IMG/VR virus record: IMGVR_UViG_3300010885_060705
Span: 1-23,274 of that record
Source: a virus
Length of the DNA: 23,274 bases
Direction: 5' to 3' (one strand)
Part shown: piece after piece, positions 2,405 through 22,648 of the stretch
Position numbering within the stretch: position 1 is the stretch's first letter
Layout: each line of letters opens with the position of its first letter
The notes under the pieces: generated by a model
The model's database searches: none
The model's input: the letters and a program-made list of their open reading frames with translations, nothing else
Told to the model about the DNA's origin: nothing
Made by a program: the position numbers and the translations under genes

Positions 2405-2923
2405 TCAAACCCCCCATTTGTCCTTGAGCCTTTTCAGGATCTCGTTCTTCTTCGCGTCCGACCTCTTCACGAGGTCCTGCCTCGCCGATTTCTTCTTTGA
2501 CTTGTCGTTTTTAAGGACTCTGGAATAGATCGCCTCGATCTTCAACTCCCACAACTCGTTCGGCACAAAGCATTCTAGGTCGCCAGCCACCTCCTTGTAA
2601 ACCATATTCCCCTCGAACATCACCTTTATCTCCGCGTTGGCTAGATTCAGGTTCACGGTGAGATCGTCTCCGTTCTTGTAGCCGTCGTAGTTATACCCGA
2701 GATGGTGTATCACCTCATCCTCGTCCATGGTCGGTATTTCCTCCTCCTCGCCCCATTCGTAGAAATCATCTATGAAAGTCTGGTGGAAAGCGCCTGAACC
2801 CTGCTGCACGACATCGAATCCGAACTTGCGGGCTATCTGGGCGAATTTGCCCTCATAGCCCATATATCCTTTTTTCATGGCTTCTATCGTTCGCTGCTCT
2901 TGTACTATTTTTTCTGTATTCAT
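2405..2923 (-). CDS. Hypothetical protein, first gene of minus-strand operon
   Basis: A 172-residue soluble protein of unknown function. Residues about 1-45 include a helical Glu/Lys-rich start and a segment (YEGKFAQIARKFGFDVVQQG) that could be a helix-turn-helix-like pair of helices. A strongly acidic middle (EEEEIPTMDEDE) follows. The last 35 residues are very basic (KNDKSKKKSARQDLVKRSDA), suggesting contact with nucleic acid; that is inference only. No clear Shine-Dalgarno precedes the ATG at 2923, so an internal start such as the Met at residue 16 is possible. The gene diverges from the metalloprotease gene, and the intervening 96 bases hold an AT-rich ATATATAT box. Confidence 0.7.
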   Translation of the reverse strand: MNTEKIVQEQRTIEAMKKGYMGYEGKFAQIARKFGFDVVQQGSGAFHQTFIDDFYEWGEEEEIPTMDEDEVIHHLGYNYDGYKNGDDLTVNLNLANAEIKVMFEGNMVYKEVAGDLECFVPNELWELKIEAIYSRVLKNDKSKKKSARQDLVKRSDAKKNEILKRLKDKWGV

Positions 2924-3019
2924 GAGTTTGGTGACAAATTAGTGTTTTATGGAATCCCATCAAATATATATATCGACGGTCTCAAGTTTCGAAAACCATT
3001 TTACATCAAGGAGGTCTAC

Positions 3020-4753
3020 ATGTTTAATTGGATAAAGAAATTGTTCTCCTTCAACAAAAAAAACAAGAAATCAAACAACAAGAAGATCATGGCTGCGGTC
3101 GTCGAAAAAGACGCCAGAGCGGACTTGAACTCCGCCGTCTCGGCGCCGGCGCCGGTCGCCAAGATACAATACCTTCTGAACGATCCGACCACTTCCGACC
3201 AGATAATCAGCGTGGTTCCCCCGGCTCCGAGCACTCTAAAGATGAACATAAACGGGTACAAGGGCGGCGGCTACGGAATCGAAACCCTCCAGGGTCAGGC
3301 TGCCGGATGCTACGTGACCATAACGAACACCGCCAAGTTCCTCATATCGAAAATCAAGACCAAGACAACCTTCGGGAAATGGGCTGCCGTAAGCATACTG
3401 AACGTCAACCCGAGGGCTGGCAAGGATTTCAACGCTTACTACGACAGGTCAAGCCTCAAGTTCTTCTACGACACGAATAAGGTCACGAAGAAGATGGTCT
3501 ACACCTGCCAGTCGGCGGATGTTGTCGCCCACGAGTTCGGTCACGCCTTCCTTGACATAATAAGACCGGACCTGTGGAGCGCCCAGTACTACGAGGCTTG
3601 GGCTTTCCACGAATCGTTCGGCGACATAGTGGCCATATTGAACATAATGCAGTACGACCAGATACTCCAGAAGGCTCTGAGGGACACGGGCAACGACATG
3701 TCGAAATCCAACATCGTGTCGAGGCTGGCCGAGGAACTGGGGAAAGCCATAGGTGACGTCACGGGCGACATGTCCTATTCGCTTTTCCTGAGAGACGCCG
3801 CCAACAACTTCAATTGGGTCGACCCTACGACGCTTCCAGACGACGCCCCCAACGCGTCTCTATCGAACGAATGCCACAGTTTCAGCAGGGTTTGGACCGG
3901 GGCTTGGTACGAGTGCATGGTGGAGATGTACAAGAAGAACGTGGCTGACAGAATGGCGCCTCTGGAAGCTCTCAAGCTAGCCAGGGACACCGCCGCGACA
4001 TACATACTGCACGCAGCCCAACACGCCAACACGATCAAGTTTTTCGAGTCTCTTGCCAGCCAGATGATAAATTACGACATAACGAAAAACGGATCAAAAT
4101 ACCTATCAGTACTCAATTCCGTTTTCTCCAAGAGGAACATAATCAAGCCGGTCATCAAGATTCTCGGTGAGGAAAGCTACAAGTCGATCATGAAAAAGAG
4201 CAAGAGCATGATCGTGACCGAGGAGCAAATTGACGGCGGGTTCGTCTGCAAGGTCAAGAGCAAGAAGATCGCGAAGGAAAAGAACAACATCTTCTCCCTT
4301 TCGAACAAAAAAGACGAGTTCAGCGTGGATCTGCCAGACAACAGCCTTTACCTGTTCGACAGCGAAAAGAATCTGGTTCACTCCATCGAAACATCGGACG
4401 AGGATGTCGACGAGATGACCAAGTTCTGCGTCTCAATGCTGGAGAGGAAAGGTCACATAGGCAGCGAAGACTCGAAAATGTTCGAGATCAAGAATCGAAA
4501 ACTGGTCAGGAAGAGAATAGCCGGATGCAAATGCATGCAGAACAACGCCTGTGACCCAAACGCCCCAGAATACGGCAAGGCGTGGAAAGGGGAAAACAAT
4601 GCCGGATGCGGCAGCAAGGGAGTCACGGTCGACTGCGAATGCAATGGTCAGGAACAGCCGGAGCCAGTCAAGTCGGGATGCTTCATCACGACTAACGCCT
4701 GCGGCTCGATTTCCAAAACCGTCTGCTCGACAGTATCAAGGACGGTCTGCTAG
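3020..4753 (+). CDS. Thermolysin-like (gluzincin) zinc metalloprotease with C-terminal CFI-box-like motif
   Basis: A 577-residue protein; the ATG at 3020 follows an AAGGAGG Shine-Dalgarno. The zinc site is clear: H171-E-F-G-H175 (HExxH), then E198 in HESFGD, with D202 four residues later. This is the M4/thermolysin arrangement, where HExxH supplies two ligands and the catalytic Glu and the ExxxD helix the third ligand. The N-terminus is basic (FNWIKKLFSFNKKNKKSNNKK) without a convincing signal peptide. The C-terminal 75 residues are Cys-rich and include GCFITTNACG, which matches the start of the CFI-box C-terminal motif of some bacterial peptidases; here it stops soon after, ending in a KTVCSTVSRTVC tandem. 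The 3' end overlaps the convergent lipoprotein gene by 18 bases. Substrate and location are unknown; lysis, host-protein processing or a virion role are all possible. Confidence 0.85.
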   Translation: MFNWIKKLFSFNKKNKKSNNKKIMAAVVEKDARADLNSAVSAPAPVAKIQYLLNDPTTSDQIISVVPPAPSTLKMNINGYKGGGYGIETLQGQAAGCYVTITNTAKFLISKIKTKTTFGKWAAVSILNVNPRAGKDFNAYYDRSSLKFFYDTNKVTKKMVYTCQSADVVAHEFGHAFLDIIRPDLWSAQYYEAWAFHESFGDIVAILNIMQYDQILQKALRDTGNDMSKSNIVSRLAEELGKAIGDVTGDMSYSLFLRDAANNFNWVDPTTLPDDAPNASLSNECHSFSRVWTGAWYECMVEMYKKNVADRMAPLEALKLARDTAATYILHAAQHANTIKFFESLASQMINYDITKNGSKYLSVLNSVFSKRNIIKPVIKILGEESYKSIMKKSKSMIVTEEQIDGGFVCKVKSKKIAKEKNNIFSLSNKKDEFSVDLPDNSLYLFDSEKNLVHSIETSDEDVDEMTKFCVSMLERKGHIGSEDSKMFEIKNRKLVRKRIAGCKCMQNNACDPNAPEYGKAWKGENNAGCGSKGVTVDCECNGQEQPEPVKSGCFITTNACGSISKTVCSTVSRTVC

Positions 4754-5206: not shown

Positions 5207-5626
<420 letters not shown>

Positions 5627-6747: not shown

Positions 6748-7341
6748 CTATTTAACGCCCAAGCATCCGATATTGCTCACGAAATAGAGATATTTCTCGT
6801 AAGCCTCGGAAAGCGAGTCGTACTCTTCGATCCGAAGCTGGTTTTTCATCTTCTGCTCGTCGACCCAATTTATTCCCGGTATGCCGTCCTTCAGGTTCAG
6901 CTGCCTCTGTATGAGATCTAGACCCTTGCCGTCCCGGAGGTTGGCGTGCGTGAGGAAAGTCGACCCAGGCGTCCTCTTCGCCAACTCGCATATCCTCCTT
7001 ATCCTGTAAAGGTAATATCTCTTAGCCTGGTCCCTGCTGTATGCTCCAGATCCTATCAGGTAGTCGACGGACGCCTCAGGCTCGCGGACAACGTAGACGA
7101 AACTGCAGCAGGACAGAAGAGACCTGTCCGAAATCTGGTAGTTGTAGAGCAGGTGGTCCATGTATATCCTGGAGTTGTTCATCAGCTTGTGTTTGTTCCC
7201 GGTAAGAGACATGAGCCTGATCTTGCTCGAGTAAACATTGTCGGAGAAGAACCCCTGTATCTTCGGATGCGCGTTGAGGGATTCGTAGACCGAGCCGCTC
7301 CCCGAGCCAACATGGCTGACCAAAAACAAAACTTTTTTCAT
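6748..7341 (-). CDS. Sulfotransferase-like P-loop protein
   Basis: A 197-residue protein. I place the start at the ATG at 7341; the frame also allows a TTG two codons upstream. The N-terminus KKVLFLVSHVGSGSGSVYESLNAHP matches the 5'-phosphosulfate-binding loop of PAPS-dependent sulfotransferases (normally RSGST...LLNSHP). FVYVVREPEASVDYLI at about 81-96 resembles the 3'-phosphate motif (LRNPRDxxxS), but the Ser is not at the canonical spacing. FLTHANLRDGKGLDLIQRQL resembles the later YEDL-type segment. Sulfotransferase-like genes are known in marine T4-like phages; substrates there are mostly unknown. It diverges from the portal gene across 68 bases. Enzyme activity is not certain given the altered motifs. 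Confidence 0.65.
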   Translation of the reverse strand: MKKVLFLVSHVGSGSGSVYESLNAHPKIQGFFSDNVYSSKIRLMSLTGNKHKLMNNSRIYMDHLLYNYQISDRSLLSCCSFVYVVREPEASVDYLIGSGAYSRDQAKRYYLYRIRRICELAKRTPGSTFLTHANLRDGKGLDLIQRQLNLKDGIPGINWVDEQKMKNQLRIEEYDSLSEAYEKYLYFVSNIGCLGVK

Positions 7342-7364
7342 TTGCAACCCAAAAAAGTCAAAAA

Positions 7365-7409: not shown

Positions 7410-9938
7410 ATGACAATTTGGTCAGATTTTTTTAAGCTATTTACATATGCCAACGAGAAAGATCCGCTAACAAAGACGAAAGACGCTTCCAAATTCTCGG
7501 GAGCGGGCATATCTCAGGCTGACGCCCTGCAAACTGGCGGCGAGCTCGTCGCTGGGCAGGGTCCGAGCAATTACGTAAATCTGCGCCAGACCTACGACAT
7601 GATCGACACCACGACCCTTGGTAACCGATCCATGCGGTACAAGGAGTACGAGAGGCTTCGAAACCTGCCGGAGATAGAGATGGCGATGACCGTTTTCGCC
7701 GACGAGGCTTGCGTCGCCGGCGACACCAGGATAGCGACGCCGTTCGGATTCCAGACCATAGAGTCGCTTGTCAGGGACAAGGCTGAAGATAGGTTCCTAG
7801 TCTACTGCTATGACTTCGAGAAAAGCGACTATACCCTCGGATGGGCTTACGCGCCAAGGCTGGTGAGGAAAGCCAAGACCGTCAAGATAGTCCTGGACAA
7901 CGGCAAGACCATAACCGCAACGCACGACCACAGGGTGCTGAAAAGGAACGGCGAGTGGACGACATGCGGCGAACTCAGGTTCGGCGACGAACTCATGCCT
8001 TTCTACAGGATCCCAGCGAACCAGAACCACAACGACCTCAAATCAAACCTGTTCCCGAGACTGTACAGCTTCGAGAAGGGATGGGTGCACGAGCGTCAGT
8101 TCATCGACGACTGGAAAAACGGGAAGACAAGCCCGGAATACGAGAAGGTCAACAGGGCTGCGAGGCTGATATGCGGCGACATCTCGGTGAGGCAGATAGC
8201 CAAGATCATGGACCACGACTGGAACACGGTCGAGAACTGGATGCACAAGAACGGCTTCACCCTCAAGGAACTGCGGCACCTGGCGAAAAACAAGACCGTG
8301 AGGAAGGTAGTCGGCGTGTCGGACGGACCGGAGACGGAAGTCTACGACATATCCGTGGAGAAACACAAGTGCTTCGCCACCGACTCGGTGATACTGCACA
8401 ACTGCCAGAAGAACGATGACGGGAACGTCCTCAAGATAGACTGCAAGAACGACGATATCCGCAAGGAGCTCGAGTTCCTGCTCCTGAACCGCAAGATGCT
8501 CAACATAAACAGGTACGCCTACGTCTATTTCAAGGACCTGATAGTGCACGGCGACAAGTTCTTCGAAGTCGTGATAAACCCGGATAACCCGTCCGAGGGC
8601 ATATACAAGATTGTCCCCCTGCCTGTCGACACCATGTACAGGATCGAGACCATCAAGGGAAGGCTCGTGGAGTTCCAGCAATCCAAGGAAGGTCCAGACT
8701 ACCAGTCGATAGCCCGTGGAGACGTGTCGCAGATGAGCGACGCCGAACTGGCTCAGTCAACAGCCATACGGTTCGCCCCTACCCAGGTTCTCCATATAAG
8801 GATAGGAGACGACAGGAAGAACTTCTACCCGTACGGTCAGTCGCTCATAGAGCCGGCGAGGGGTCCAGCCCACCAACTGAGGCTGATGGAGGACGCCATG
8901 GTCGTATACAGGTTGGTAAGGGCTCCCGAGCGAAGGGTGTTCTACATAGATGTCGGTCAGCTTCCGCCTTTCAAGGCTGAGGCGTTCATAGAGAGGCTCA
9001 AGGACCAGTTCCGCAAGAGGAAGACTGCGAACAACCGGGGCTCGGTCGGAGCCAACATGGTCGAGGAGCGTTGGCAGCCCCCGGCGCAGGACGAGGACTT
9101 CTGGATACCCACGAGACCGAACGCGAACAGCAGGATCGAGACCCTTCCGGGGGCGCAGAACCTCGGCGAGATAGACGACGCGCTCTATTTCAGGAACAAG
9201 CTCTTCATAGCCCTGAACTTCCCGAAGAACTATTTCTCCAGCGAGGACGTCAACGCCACGAGGATAACGCTTTCGGCTCAGGACGTTAAGTTCGCAAGGA
9301 TGATCGAGAGGCTGCAGTCGAATTTCGAGGACGCCATGATAGACCTGTGCGAGAGGCATCTCGAGCTCCGCGGCTATCCGCAGGAGATGTACCATGACCT
9401 TAAGGTGAAGATGACGCCCCCTTCTGACTGGAGGGAACTGTCGAGAGCCGAGGTGAGGACGGCGAGGTTCACGAACGCCGGCGCCCTCAAAAGCGGCATG
9501 CTCATGTCCGACTACGACATATACACGAGGATACTCATGTATTCCGACGAGGACACCTCGATGATGCTCAGCAGGCTCAAGCTCCAGAAGCTGGAGGACC
9601 TGAAGATACAGATCATGTCGCAGAACCCGCAGCTCCTCGGGGTCGGGATACCAAACCAGCAGTCGCCGGACACGGAAGTCGGAGCCGAAGCCGGCGGTCC
9701 GACGCCGGAACTCGCAGCCGGGGGAGCGCCACCGGAAGGAGCGCCACCAGAAGGCTCCCCGGAAGGAGCCCCGCCGGAAGGCGCGCCGGAGGATACGGAC
9801 GAGAAGTCCAAGCCGGGAGACTCGGCTTCGGAAGTGCCGATACCGTCCGAGGACGACATCAAGAAGTACAACATGGAAATCAAGGACTACAGGACGGACA
9901 TGGACTACGAGGACAAGGACACCAGCTACTTGAGCTGA
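7410..9938 (+). CDS. 20: Portal vertex protein (T4 gp20-like) interrupted by an intein
   Basis: An 842-residue precursor. After removal of a 231-residue intein (101-331) the extein is 611 residues, a little longer than T4 gp20 (about 520). Extein segments such as EIEMAMTVFADEA, LRIGDDRKNFYPYGQSLIEP, RAPERRVFYIDVGQLPP and NFPKNYFSSEDVNATRITLSAQD are typical gp20 core sequence. The portal forms the dodecameric head vertex that nucleates the prohead and through which DNA is packaged. The C-terminal 100 or so residues hold a low-complexity Gly/Ala/Pro/Glu tract (APPEGAPPEGSPEGAPPEG) absent from T4. Arg is mostly AGG and Ile mostly ATA, unlike the capsid gene. It starts the head-morphogenesis run, followed by gp67/68-position, protease, scaffold and capsid genes. 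Confidence 0.93.
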   Translation: MTIWSDFFKLFTYANEKDPLTKTKDASKFSGAGISQADALQTGGELVAGQGPSNYVNLRQTYDMIDTTTLGNRSMRYKEYERLRNLPEIEMAMTVFADEACVAGDTRIATPFGFQTIESLVRDKAEDRFLVYCYDFEKSDYTLGWAYAPRLVRKAKTVKIVLDNGKTITATHDHRVLKRNGEWTTCGELRFGDELMPFYRIPANQNHNDLKSNLFPRLYSFEKGWVHERQFIDDWKNGKTSPEYEKVNRAARLICGDISVRQIAKIMDHDWNTVENWMHKNGFTLKELRHLAKNKTVRKVVGVSDGPETEVYDISVEKHKCFATDSVILHNCQKNDDGNVLKIDCKNDDIRKELEFLLLNRKMLNINRYAYVYFKDLIVHGDKFFEVVINPDNPSEGIYKIVPLPVDTMYRIETIKGRLVEFQQSKEGPDYQSIARGDVSQMSDAELAQSTAIRFAPTQVLHIRIGDDRKNFYPYGQSLIEPARGPAHQLRLMEDAMVVYRLVRAPERRVFYIDVGQLPPFKAEAFIERLKDQFRKRKTANNRGSVGANMVEERWQPPAQDEDFWIPTRPNANSRIETLPGAQNLGEIDDALYFRNKLFIALNFPKNYFSSEDVNATRITLSAQDVKFARMIERLQSNFEDAMIDLCERHLELRGYPQEMYHDLKVKMTPPSDWRELSRAEVRTARFTNAGALKSGMLMSDYDIYTRILMYSDEDTSMMLSRLKLQKLEDLKIQIMSQNPQLLGVGIPNQQSPDTEVGAEAGGPTPELAAGGAPPEGAPPEGSPEGAPPEGAPEDTDEKSKPGDSASEVPIPSEDDIKKYNMEIKDYRTDMDYEDKDTSYLS
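7710..8402 (+). other. Intein within portal protein (residues 101-331)
   Basis: Block A begins with Cys101 (CVAGDTRIATPFGFQTIESL). Block B is THDHRVL with the TxxH pair T171/H174. The C-terminal blocks are VYDISVEKHKCFATDSVILHN, ending in the penultimate His330 and Asn331, with Cys332 as the first C-extein residue. All residues needed for standard Cys-type splicing are present, so it should be active. The insertion point is in the conserved FADEA | CQK region. At 231 residues it is larger than a minimal Hint domain. The extra central part (about 200-300) has no LAGLIDADG or HNH active site that I can see, but carries a helix-turn-helix-like stretch (ISVRQIAKIMDHDWNTVENW, 258-277), perhaps a remnant of a homing endonuclease's DNA-binding domain. 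Confidence 0.92.
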
Positions 9939-15939: not shown

Positions 15940-15977
15940 TAAAAAACCCAGTCATCTTCGGATGGTTGGGTTTTTTT
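15940..15977 (+). terminator. Strong rho-independent terminator after capsid gene
   Basis: The stem AAAAACCCAGTCATC / GATGGTTGGGTTTTT is closed by a cUUCGg tetraloop (loop 15957-15960), with two G-U pairs and a T7 run. It isolates the capsid transcript from the homing endonuclease. A smaller hairpin (TCCTTG/CAAGGA, 15912-15928) lies just upstream. Confidence 0.93.
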
Positions 15978-16013
15978 ATTTGCATTTACATTTTAAGAAT
16001 TTAATTCAAAAGG

Positions 16014-16040
16014 TTGTTGCGAGAATATATCTGATATGTT
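16014..16040 (+). promoter_or_regulatory. Possible promoter for the homing endonuclease
   Basis: TTGTTG at 16014 and an extended -10-like TGATATGTT at 16032-16040, with a short 15-base spacer, lie between the capsid terminator and the endonuclease Shine-Dalgarno. An AATATAT box also falls here (16024-16030). Because a strong terminator precedes this gene, some local promoter is likely. Confidence 0.35.
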
Positions 16041-16075
16041 ATGATGCGTGTGTCATTAACAATAAGGAGAGAAAA

Positions 16076-17242
16076 ATGCAACTAGAAGAATTTGACACCA
16101 AGTGGAACTCTGTAGGAATGAAACACTACATTGACATGCATTGTTCAGACTGTGGGTGCGAGAGAACTGTTCTTAAAGAAAAAGCCAGGGCTACAATAAT
16201 TCGCAAAGGAAGATACCTGTGTCGGAGTTGCAGCATGAAGCAACGCCACAAAGATGTAGAGTTCTCGGAAGACCGCAAAGAAAACATCAGTCGGTCGTTG
16301 AAAGGCATCAAAAGGTCTGCGGAAACTCGCGAGAAAATGTCTGAGGCTAAATTGGAGTTTTACAAGACGCAAAAAGGTTTATCTCTCAAGAATAAACTTT
16401 CCCTTCTCGCCTCTCAAGCTCACGCGGAAAACAAGTTTGAAAACAAGAAGAGACAAGGTTGGCACCAGTCTGGAAAAGCCGGATTGGTATTCTATGGGTC
16501 GTCATACGAACTGCGACTCTGCCACGAGCTAGACGCTGACCCGTCTGTGAAAACCTATCGAACTCAAATCTCCTATCAAGCAAGAGAAAGGGGGCGATGT
16601 TTGGATTTTCTCGTTACATACACGGATGGCAACAATGAGTCCATTGAGGTTAAGCCAGAATCTCGTCTTTGCGAACAAGCCAACATCGATCAAATCAATG
16701 ACAGTAGAGAGTTTGCAGAATCGCAAGGATGGAGTTTCGAAGTTTACACCGAAAAAACTTTTGGGATGACCGACAAAGAACTGCGTGACTGGTCTGATGT
16801 TGTTCGCTCCCAGATGGGTGATTTCGACTGGGTTGCATTCCGCAAAGAACTTAACCAGAAGAAAGCCAATAATTACTATCGCAAAAACATAGCCAACGAC
16901 AAGGTGACCGTGTTCTGCTCCTTCTGCCAGATGGACCACACCCCGCTTCGGCTCACGCACGACAAGAACATCGCGAGGAACGGTCGCTACATATGCGAGC
17001 GAGAGGGAGGTCACATGGCGGGAAGCAGACCGAAGCCGCACCTGCAGAAGGACAACCCGCACCTCGCCGACGGGAAGAAGGAGTGCCTGAAATGCAAGGT
17101 CATCCTAGACCTGGCGGAGTTCGGCGTGGACAAGGGGAGACGCGACGGACTCTCCAGCAGGTGCAAGAAATGCAGGGCTGCCTCGGCTACATCGAAATAC
17201 CAAGCCAAAAACAGAAAAGAAAATGAGGACAACAATATATAG
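16076..17242 (+). CDS. Free-standing homing endonuclease, PD-(D/E)XK with NUMOD3 and zinc knuckles
   Basis: A 388-residue protein; the ATG at 16076 follows AAGGAGAG. The domain order is a zinc knuckle (C23, C26, C49, C52), a NUMOD3 DNA-binding motif (KENISRSLKGIKRSAETREKMSE, about 68-90), and a PD-(D/E)XK nuclease with E144 (GSSYE), D177 (RCLDF), E191 and K193 (IEVK). A second copy of the N-terminal knuckle follows (C281, C284, IARNGRYIC), then an endonuclease VII-like CxxC...CxxC end (C337/C340, C363/C366 with FGVDKGRRDGLSSRC). Such enzymes cut a related phage's genome and copy themselves in. Up to about base 16895 the gene is AT-rich with mixed codons; after that it uses the GC-rich AGG style of this phage, so it looks like a fusion. 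Confidence 0.85.
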   Translation: MQLEEFDTKWNSVGMKHYIDMHCSDCGCERTVLKEKARATIIRKGRYLCRSCSMKQRHKDVEFSEDRKENISRSLKGIKRSAETREKMSEAKLEFYKTQKGLSLKNKLSLLASQAHAENKFENKKRQGWHQSGKAGLVFYGSSYELRLCHELDADPSVKTYRTQISYQARERGRCLDFLVTYTDGNNESIEVKPESRLCEQANIDQINDSREFAESQGWSFEVYTEKTFGMTDKELRDWSDVVRSQMGDFDWVAFRKELNQKKANNYYRKNIANDKVTVFCSFCQMDHTPLRLTHDKNIARNGRYICEREGGHMAGSRPKPHLQKDNPHLADGKKECLKCKVILDLAEFGVDKGRRDGLSSRCKKCRAASATSKYQAKNRKENEDNNI

Positions 17243-21577: not shown

Positions 21578-22144
21578 TCAGTCTTTTGCCAAGAAGTTCG
21601 GGATCCTGTGCGCGAATGTTTTAAGATACTCTTGCGCGCCCTTGTTGTCAAACACTATCTCGAATCTTTCCTTCTGCTTCTTTATGGAGCAGGTGCAGTC
21701 GAGGGAGTTGAAGTAGTCGGCTATGACCTGCGTGCCTTCCTCGCCGAATTTCTGGGTCCTCAGGTACACCTTCCTCTTGCTCTTCCTTCCGGAGTCCACG
21801 TACCAAACCATCCAGGCTAGGTCGTTGAGCGACTCCAGTATCTCCTTCGTGATGATCTTCCTGCCGTCCTTGTAGAACTTCCTGTATATGGAGTTGAAGC
21901 ACGGGTAGGCTATGGAATAGCACCTGTACGTGTTCTTGTCCTTCTTGACCGTGTTGCTGTCCATCTTGAACATGTCCTGCAGCTCGTTGATCTTGTAGGA
22001 AAGCCAGTTGAGGTCGCTGTCGCGCATGGCTAGGTAGCAGTTCCTGCCGTAGGTCGGGTTGACGATCGACGATCCTCCTATAATTGTTCCGTACAGTATT
22101 TGAGTCTGGAACGACTTCATCTCTGGGCTGTTTTCGTAGGTCAT
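21578..22144 (-). CDS. LAGLIDADG-type homing endonuclease, possibly degenerate
   Basis: A 188-residue protein from the ATG at 22144; the frame extends to 22342 but would overlap the plus-strand gene at 22253, so I reject that start. Motif 1 is ILYGTIIGGSSI (residues 16-27), where active enzymes have LxGxLLGDGS; the catalytic Asp is Gly here. Motif 2 is LNDLAWMVWYVDSG (106-119), with Asp117 kept. Later strands (KVYLRTQKF, FEIVFDNKGAQ) fit the family's single-subunit fold. Codon use is AGG/ATA-rich like this phage, suggesting long residence. No clear Shine-Dalgarno is visible, and an ATATATAT box lies just upstream. It heads a minus-strand operon of three genes. Confidence 0.8.
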   Translation of the reverse strand: MTYENSPEMKSFQTQILYGTIIGGSSIVNPTYGRNCYLAMRDSDLNWLSYKINELQDMFKMDSNTVKKDKNTYRCYSIAYPCFNSIYRKFYKDGRKIITKEILESLNDLAWMVWYVDSGRKSKRKVYLRTQKFGEEGTQVIADYFNSLDCTCSIKKQKERFEIVFDNKGAQEYLKTFAHRIPNFLAKD

Positions 22145-22252
22145 GAAGGTATATATATTTTTCGCAATATTTATTCCGTTGGATTGCGACAAAAAGATCC
22201 CCGAATCGTATCTATATCGGTTAACTTTCACCTTAATTCCAAGGAGGCTATT

Positions 22253-22648
22253 ATGGGTGCTACTAGCGTAACGGGCGTAGGTCAAGGTTCCGCGAGCAAA
22301 GTCGGACCAGCAATCAAGAACATTACCATCAACGATCCACATATCGTCATGACTGGTGTGTGCTCAAATATTGGACAAGCTTTACCATGGAAAATTCGTG
22401 TTTATTTTCCAGAACTTCCATTAGATCCATCTCATTATTCCGTATTCGTAATACAGTCAGATTTATCAGACACCGATGGATCAGGTGGAGACTTGGCTCC
22501 ACACATTGCAAAAAAAGATGCCAATGGAAACTTTGAAAACGATGGGTTCGACAGCGGATTCGCTAGCTTTACTCTTCGTACAGGAACTAGCGCAGATGTA
22601 TCTTTCATGTGGATGATCGTTAAAAACGGCATGAATGTAAGAAGCTAA
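22253..22648 (+). CDS. Probable head decoration or fibre-base protein with MGATS N-terminus
   Basis: A 131-residue protein; the ATG at 22253 follows AAGGAGG. It starts MGATSVTGVGQGSASK, a Gly/Ser-rich peptide shared with the next gene. The rest (WKIRVYFPELPL, YSVFVIQSDLS, FASFTLRTGTSADVSFMWMIV) looks beta-rich, like a small virion surface protein. It is AT-rich with codon use like the RCC1 and solenoid genes rather than the head genes. The family is not known to me; structural function is inferred from sequence type and context. Confidence 0.65.
   Translation: MGATSVTGVGQGSASKVGPAIKNITINDPHIVMTGVCSNIGQALPWKIRVYFPELPLDPSHYSVFVIQSDLSDTDGSGGDLAPHIAKKDANGNFENDGFDSGFASFTLRTGTSADVSFMWMIVKNGMNVRS

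Follow-up and report, generated by a model that had tools for sequence, protein, structure and literature searches.

A portal-protein intein of T4-like phages with a conserved non-nuclease module that persists in a free-standing gene predicted not to splice

Inteins are usually seen as selfish passengers, and in the usual view an intein that has been excised is useless unless it carries a nuclease. Inteins without a nuclease are common, and the forms known as mini-inteins have no nuclease and a minimal length of ~130-150 aa. Inteins have been reported in a phage portal protein (PORT) in the cluster C1 mycobacteriophages (PMC5050341). In addition, helix-turn-helix (HTH) accessory domains occur in the nuclease-bearing inteins TliVMA and PI-TkoII, in which they are thought to contact DNA (PMC8966425).

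The window analyzed here is the whole 23,274-nucleotide stretch of IMG/VR record IMGVR_UViG_3300010885_060705 (Table 1). An 842-aa ORF in the window was assigned as a T4-like portal protein (gp20) based on its matches to PF07230 (E 1.7e-75) and to solved gp20 chains (E 8e-33). Within this product, residues 101-331 were identified as an intein by PF14890 (Intein_splicing, E 1.1e-12, over the cut-off) and, in NCBIfam, by TIGR01445 (intein_Nterm, 50.2 bits against a cut-off of 24.5) and TIGR01443 (intein_Cterm, 16.6 bits against a cut-off of 15.6). The residues of a class 1 intein are all present, these being portal Cys101 as intein Cys1, THDH as the TxxH motif at intein residues 71-74, His330-Asn331, and Cys332 as the +1 residue. 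The Hint-fold assignment made from the profiles was also apparent in an AF2 model of the intein built from 46 homologues (mean pLDDT 96.6), the splicing part of which matched the Mtu RecA intein with a Z of 21.8 over 136 residues at 1.5 A. The limits of the intein are exact, because the homologues have the same junctions, DE[AST]/C...HN/CQ. As judged from the profiles and the model, the segment is an intact class-1-type intein for which splicing is predicted. These results agree with an earlier note on this DNA, which had placed an intein in the portal protein at these limits and described its splice residues as intact. The note had also proposed a comparison with intein-free gp20, and the possibility that the segment is native gp20 was rejected since T4-like outgroup portals and gp20 are without it.

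Table 1. Features of the portal locus in the window; features within the intein are predicted from profiles, alignment and modelling
Feature	Position	Strand	Basis or remark
Portal's syntenic neighbour	6748..7347	-	Homologues in 166 loci; homologue beside the free Hint-HTH gene in L161 and L162
T4-like portal (gp20) gene, intein-bearing	7410..9938	+	N-extein 7410-7709, C-extein 8403-9938; PF07230, gp20 chains
Intein, 231 aa	7710..8402	+	PF14890, TIGR01445, TIGR01443; junctions common to homologues
Intein landmark codons	Cys1 7710-7712; His230-Asn231 8397-8402; Cys+1 8403-8405	+	
N-terminal splicing part, residues 1-96	7710..7997	+	TIGR01445; AF2 model vs Mtu RecA mini-intein, Z 21.8
Block B TxxH, residues 71-74	7920..7931	+	T71 and H74 in 125/125 distinct homologues
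Beta-hairpin and helix, residues 114-137, with PRLYSFEKGWVHERQFIDDW	8049..8120	+	Entropy 1.05 bits; 96% identity between free genes
Four-helix HTH-like part, residues 142-191	8133..8282	+	AF2 pLDDT ~95; weak NarL/LuxR-type HTH matches
C-terminal splicing part, residues 196-231, with His-Asn end	8295..8402	+	TIGR01443; D213, H230 and N231 in 125/125

Several other genes of the window were recorded. At its start is an RCC1-repeat protein (1-1332, +; PF00415, 4.5e-63, seven repeats), followed by a thermolysin-like protein (2900-4753, +; PF01447, 1.2e-4) and an ORF composed of near-pure aspartate runs (5207-5626, +), which could be a coding simple repeat and has a similar acidic ORF in locus L237. 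Behind the major capsid gene is a free-standing putative nuclease (15962-17242, +) with a TnsA-like core (PF08722, 7e-9) and an endonuclease VII-like C-terminal stretch (PHROG 1035), and related ORFs were seen in 6 other loci. A free-standing LAGLIDADG_2 endonuclease (PF03161, 3.1e-28) is encoded at 21578-22342 on the minus strand, with a related ORF in L195.

A scan of IMG/VR identified at least 80 relatives of the intein, all of them at the same portal codon wherever the locus was long enough to judge. Over all fetched loci there were 202 complete intein ORFs with no stops in any of the 202; as overlapping loci repeat some contigs, the 125 distinct sequences among them are the number to use. 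The homologues are 228-238 aa in length, nearly all being 230-235 aa, and C1, T71, H74, D213, H230 and N231 are invariant in all 125. Conservation over this number of distinct sequences excludes a chance origin. Frame-broken copies on metagenome contigs in L227 (minus strand, from ~9020) and L103 (from 3529) could be dead or could reflect errors of sequencing. Among GenBank phages the only full-length relative came from the metagenomic phage LR756511.1 (595 kb, unannotated). One full-length relative (59%) was found in cellular genomes, on the 77-kb contig RXKI01000042.1 (L289) of a Neisseriaceae MAG, and is either a possible hint of the host or a sign of a phage contig within the bin.

Between the two splicing halves are ~95 residues that consist of a linker, a beta-hairpin with a helix (residues 114-137) and four helices (residues 142-191) in an HTH arrangement, which the AF2 model places at 142-155, 160-166, 171-180 and 185-191 with a pLDDT of ~95. 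By sequence the HTH of the window intein is weak (HTH_Tnp_ISL3, E 0.0035; HTH_38, E 0.022). When the middle was modelled alone (pLDDT 86.5), its leading structural matches were mostly HTHs of the NarL/LuxR and AraC types, with a best Z of only 5.7 and a Foldseek E of 0.07, which is above 0.05. The middle is likely an HTH based on the modelling, and DNA binding is no more than putative because the matches are low. The search against nuclease profiles proposed in the earlier note detected no passing nuclease family when the window intein was compared with Pfam, PHROGs and NCBIfam, and none when 45 relatives were compared with Pfam. The sole match with a nuclease label was PHROG 7545 ("HNH endonuclease", E 0.018), which is confined to the HTH and the part after it. 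The note's description of an HTH-like segment with no visible nuclease was thus borne out. Defence-system profiles gave no match for the intein or the free-standing genes described below, and HNH nucleases were absent from the PDB comparison of the middle, an absence that proves nothing. None of the endonuclease domains (LAGLIDADG, HNH, GIY-YIG, PD-(D/E)XK) that characterize a homing intein was thus detected in the intein, and neither is it a mini-intein with little past its splicing domain, given the ~95 extra conserved residues.

The conservation of the middle is uneven. Residues 114-137 have the lowest entropy of the intein, at 1.05 bits versus 1.38 for the splicing part, and the putative recognition helix (171-180), with a mean charge of +1.2, is among the most variable regions (2.38 bits). 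Exposed positions that vary on an otherwise conserved frame would be compatible with a binding surface that tracks its target. Since the HTH varies more than any other part and matches known folds only weakly, it may instead be the hairpin-helix that carries the selected function, which could then be something other than DNA binding.

In 14 close pairs of inteins dN/dS was 0.105 for the N-terminal splicing part, 0.137 for the hairpin region, 0.131 for the HTH and 0.127 for the C-terminal splicing part, indicating that the middle is under purifying selection at a level similar to that of the splicing part. The earlier note had suggested that the segment might be a decayed homing intein or a new kind of insert. 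In a decaying intein the middle should be under relaxed selection and eroding in length; instead, dN/dS there is 0.13-0.14 (0.105-0.127 in the splicing parts), the length is near-constant at 228-238 aa and free copies have retained the middle while losing splicing. We consequently rejected a decaying homing intein on the basis of dN/dS, length and conservation, although the intein may descend from a homing intein. To call the portal intein itself a new kind of insert would overstate the case, both portal inteins and nuclease-less inteins being known. An account that fits the uniform dN/dS is that the middle is a remnant of a homing endonuclease region that the Hint fold needs for folding and splicing, the excised intein being inert. 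A mutualism between nuclease and Hint domains has been proposed (PMC8966425), and the hairpin-helix is packed in the confident single model. We consider this account unlikely, however, as free genes without the splicing residues keep the hairpin-helix (96%) while their splicing half diverges beyond that of embedded inteins.

To describe the occupancy of the site, DNA patterns for its occupied and empty forms were matched to IMG/VR; these require exact codons, and their counts therefore give a ratio and not a census. The occupied-site pattern matched 109 stretches, all with this intein (6 ended at contig ends or were frameshifted) and none with a nuclease-bearing form at the same site. The matching empty-site pattern was found in 3 stretches, of which 2 are genuine (L161 and L162). 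Portals outside the clade (~38% identical) are intein-free and mostly have Thr or Ser at the junction. The intein and portal trees are in broad agreement (Mantel r 0.66 versus a maximum of 0.21 in 999 permutations) and conflicts between them are few, for example L058/L077. This agreement argues for mainly vertical inheritance. The sporadic distribution and discordant trees of a homing intein were thus not seen in this near-universal intein, and the sequences fit an intein that is fixed at one gp20 site in a T4-like phage clade and inherited mainly vertically, with no current homing.

Further inteins are present in portals of the clade, at a site b (VYRL/C) in L012, L021, L079 and L100 and at a site c (LPGA/C) in L077, L214 and L281. 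Those at site b exceed the window intein in length, most being 395-430 aa. At site c, the intein of L281 is long and includes an HNH_3-like segment that scores slightly below the cut-off (22.2 against 24.8 bits; E 1.1e-4); with the shorter ones of L077 and L214 it forms an apparent nuclease-loss series. The N-terminal splicing part of one site c intein aligns with that of the window intein at 27% identity. By hhalign, the middle had no significant match to two site c inteins and resembles them only by eye; with no homology detected there, an origin of the intein from an HNH form is a guess.

These other, often longer inteins, one of them HNH-like, would be in keeping with an intein that is still mobile, in which the HTH recognizes an empty site for a nuclease encoded elsewhere to cut in trans. 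The free-standing TnsA-like (15962-17242) and LAGLIDADG (21578-22342) nucleases of the window could supply such an activity, and a few conflicts between the trees, L058/L077 among them, are a hint that transfer occurs on rare occasions. Continued mobility of this kind is nevertheless decidedly improbable in our judgement, given that the trees are broadly concordant, that empty sites are almost absent and that empty portals accompanied by a free copy have not been re-invaded. The neighbours are also inconsistent, with the TnsA-like gene in 7 loci and the LAGLIDADG gene in 2, as opposed to 43 for the major capsid gene. A consistent partner nuclease nearby was rejected, none being found among the loci compared.

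The two genuine intein-free portals, L161 and L162, are from different assemblies and belong to one lineage that is nested inside the intein-bearing clade (95). Each of these loci carries a separate gene, encoding 235-236 aa, that is homologous to the whole intein; in L161 its product (M-SVAG...LISN-stop) spans intein residues 1-231. The gene is located between a 2H-phosphoesterase-like gene and ORF198m, the portal's neighbour on the minus strand. Among the other loci with both of these flanking genes, the gap between them is 1-239 bp in 34 (10 bp in the near relatives L036, L211, L274 and L275), and in the last two the junction is occupied by different DNA, L193 having an unrelated ORF and L237 being rearranged. 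No further free gene was found at this junction in other loci, and a scan with both free genes returned 18 loci in which only the copies of L161 and L162 are free-standing. The 2H-phosphoesterase-like gene (L161:3590-4135, and in other clade loci) matches Acb1 (anti-CBASS, 1.2e-7) and 2_5_RNA_ligase2 (2.1e-7) and may be a counter-defence gene near the portal. The free genes group with L079, L036, L089, L211, L213 and L222 (98) in the tree of inteins, and since this matches the place of their portals, they descend from their lineage's own portal intein.

Neither free protein should splice via the class 1 route, as C1, T71, D213 and H230 have been lost in L161 and C1, H74, D213, H230 and N231 in L162. 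Overall identity between the free genes is 54%. When as many changes as observed were simulated under neutrality, the frame remained open in 0/5000 runs, and the observed changes have a codon-position bias (p 0.006). Residues 114-137 of the pair are 96% identical, which was reached by 0/1021 embedded pairs of equal overall identity, and its N-terminal splicing part falls below 99% of the same 1021 pairs; the pairs are non-independent and the comparison is thus a ranking with no p-value. That the hairpin was kept as the splicing half diverged suggests that splicing was no longer under selection whereas the hairpin-helix still was. As both genes are from one lineage, they represent one event.

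It might be argued that the free genes are slowly decaying relics and uninformative on function, given that they diverge faster than embedded inteins (ratio of free-gene to portal divergence 6.1, versus a median of 2.6 and a maximum of 6.0 for embedded inteins) and have an overall dN/dS of ~0.5. This is scarcely credible against the simulations, the codon-position bias and the near-identity of the hairpin, and both genes have their own start codons, preceded in L161 by a purine-rich stretch and in L162 overlapping the preceding gene at an ATGA. The same two loci bear on the idea that conditional splicing of the portal precursor is an assembly switch and the reason that the intein is kept. Conditional inteins are known, such as that of P. 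horikoshii RadA (PMC8987985), and near-universal occupancy in the clade with absolutely conserved splicing residues would be consistent with a switch. However, any essential gene would conserve such residues, and in L161 and L162 the portals are intein-free while the intein protein is kept elsewhere without them, leaving a switch very improbable.

We lean towards the reading that the intein is fixed and vertically inherited and that its central module functions beyond splicing, most likely in nucleic-acid binding once excised. Supporting a role of the module as more than a splicing helper is the retention of the hairpin-helix in a splicing-dead gene. We speculate that the element originated as a homing intein whose nuclease was lost after fixation and which was then domesticated. 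The portal precursor would splice itself and release the 231-aa intein, made in equal number with the portal protein and useful to the phage, possibly as a regulator or a packaging-related factor acting by nucleic-acid binding. In one lineage the portal is intein-free and the intein protein is encoded by a separate gene that has lost splicing residues and retained the hairpin-helix. The fuller proposal is that after excision the intein works as a protein of its own, probably by binding nucleic acid, that it is supplied at a constant ratio to the portal, and that in one lineage it became an independent splicing-dead gene; in our estimation this proposal is evenly balanced. Nucleic-acid binding is a best guess from the predicted HTH and its charge, and the alternative is protein binding by the hairpin-helix.

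The free gene separates selection for splicing from selection on the rest of the intein. This natural experiment points to the 24-residue hairpin-helix as the selected part, and the question of whether an excised intein can have a job becomes testable. No description of an intein kept as a splicing-dead gene was found in the open-access literature searched, and we likewise did not find in open-access papers the combination that appears to be new here, namely fixation across the clade together with a conserved module that is not a nuclease and with persistence as a splicing-dead gene.

In comparison with known systems, the location of the intein has a precedent. The earlier note had regarded the portal as a less usual intein site; the portal is indeed less common, but it is not new as a site, because the PORT inteins of the cluster C1 mycobacteriophages, which are different phages, are also in a phage portal (PMC5050341). 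TliVMA and PI-TkoII resemble the portal intein in having an HTH within the intein, but theirs is beside a nuclease and here none was found. In its splicing fold the portal intein resembles the Mtu RecA splicing domain and the Npu DnaB intein (Z 21.8 and 20.9; 136-137 residues, 1.4-1.6 A), with which Cys1, TxxH, His-Asn and Cys+1 are common. Relative to these two mini-inteins, the portal intein has ~95 additional residues, the hairpin-helix and the HTH, in the place usually taken by the nuclease.
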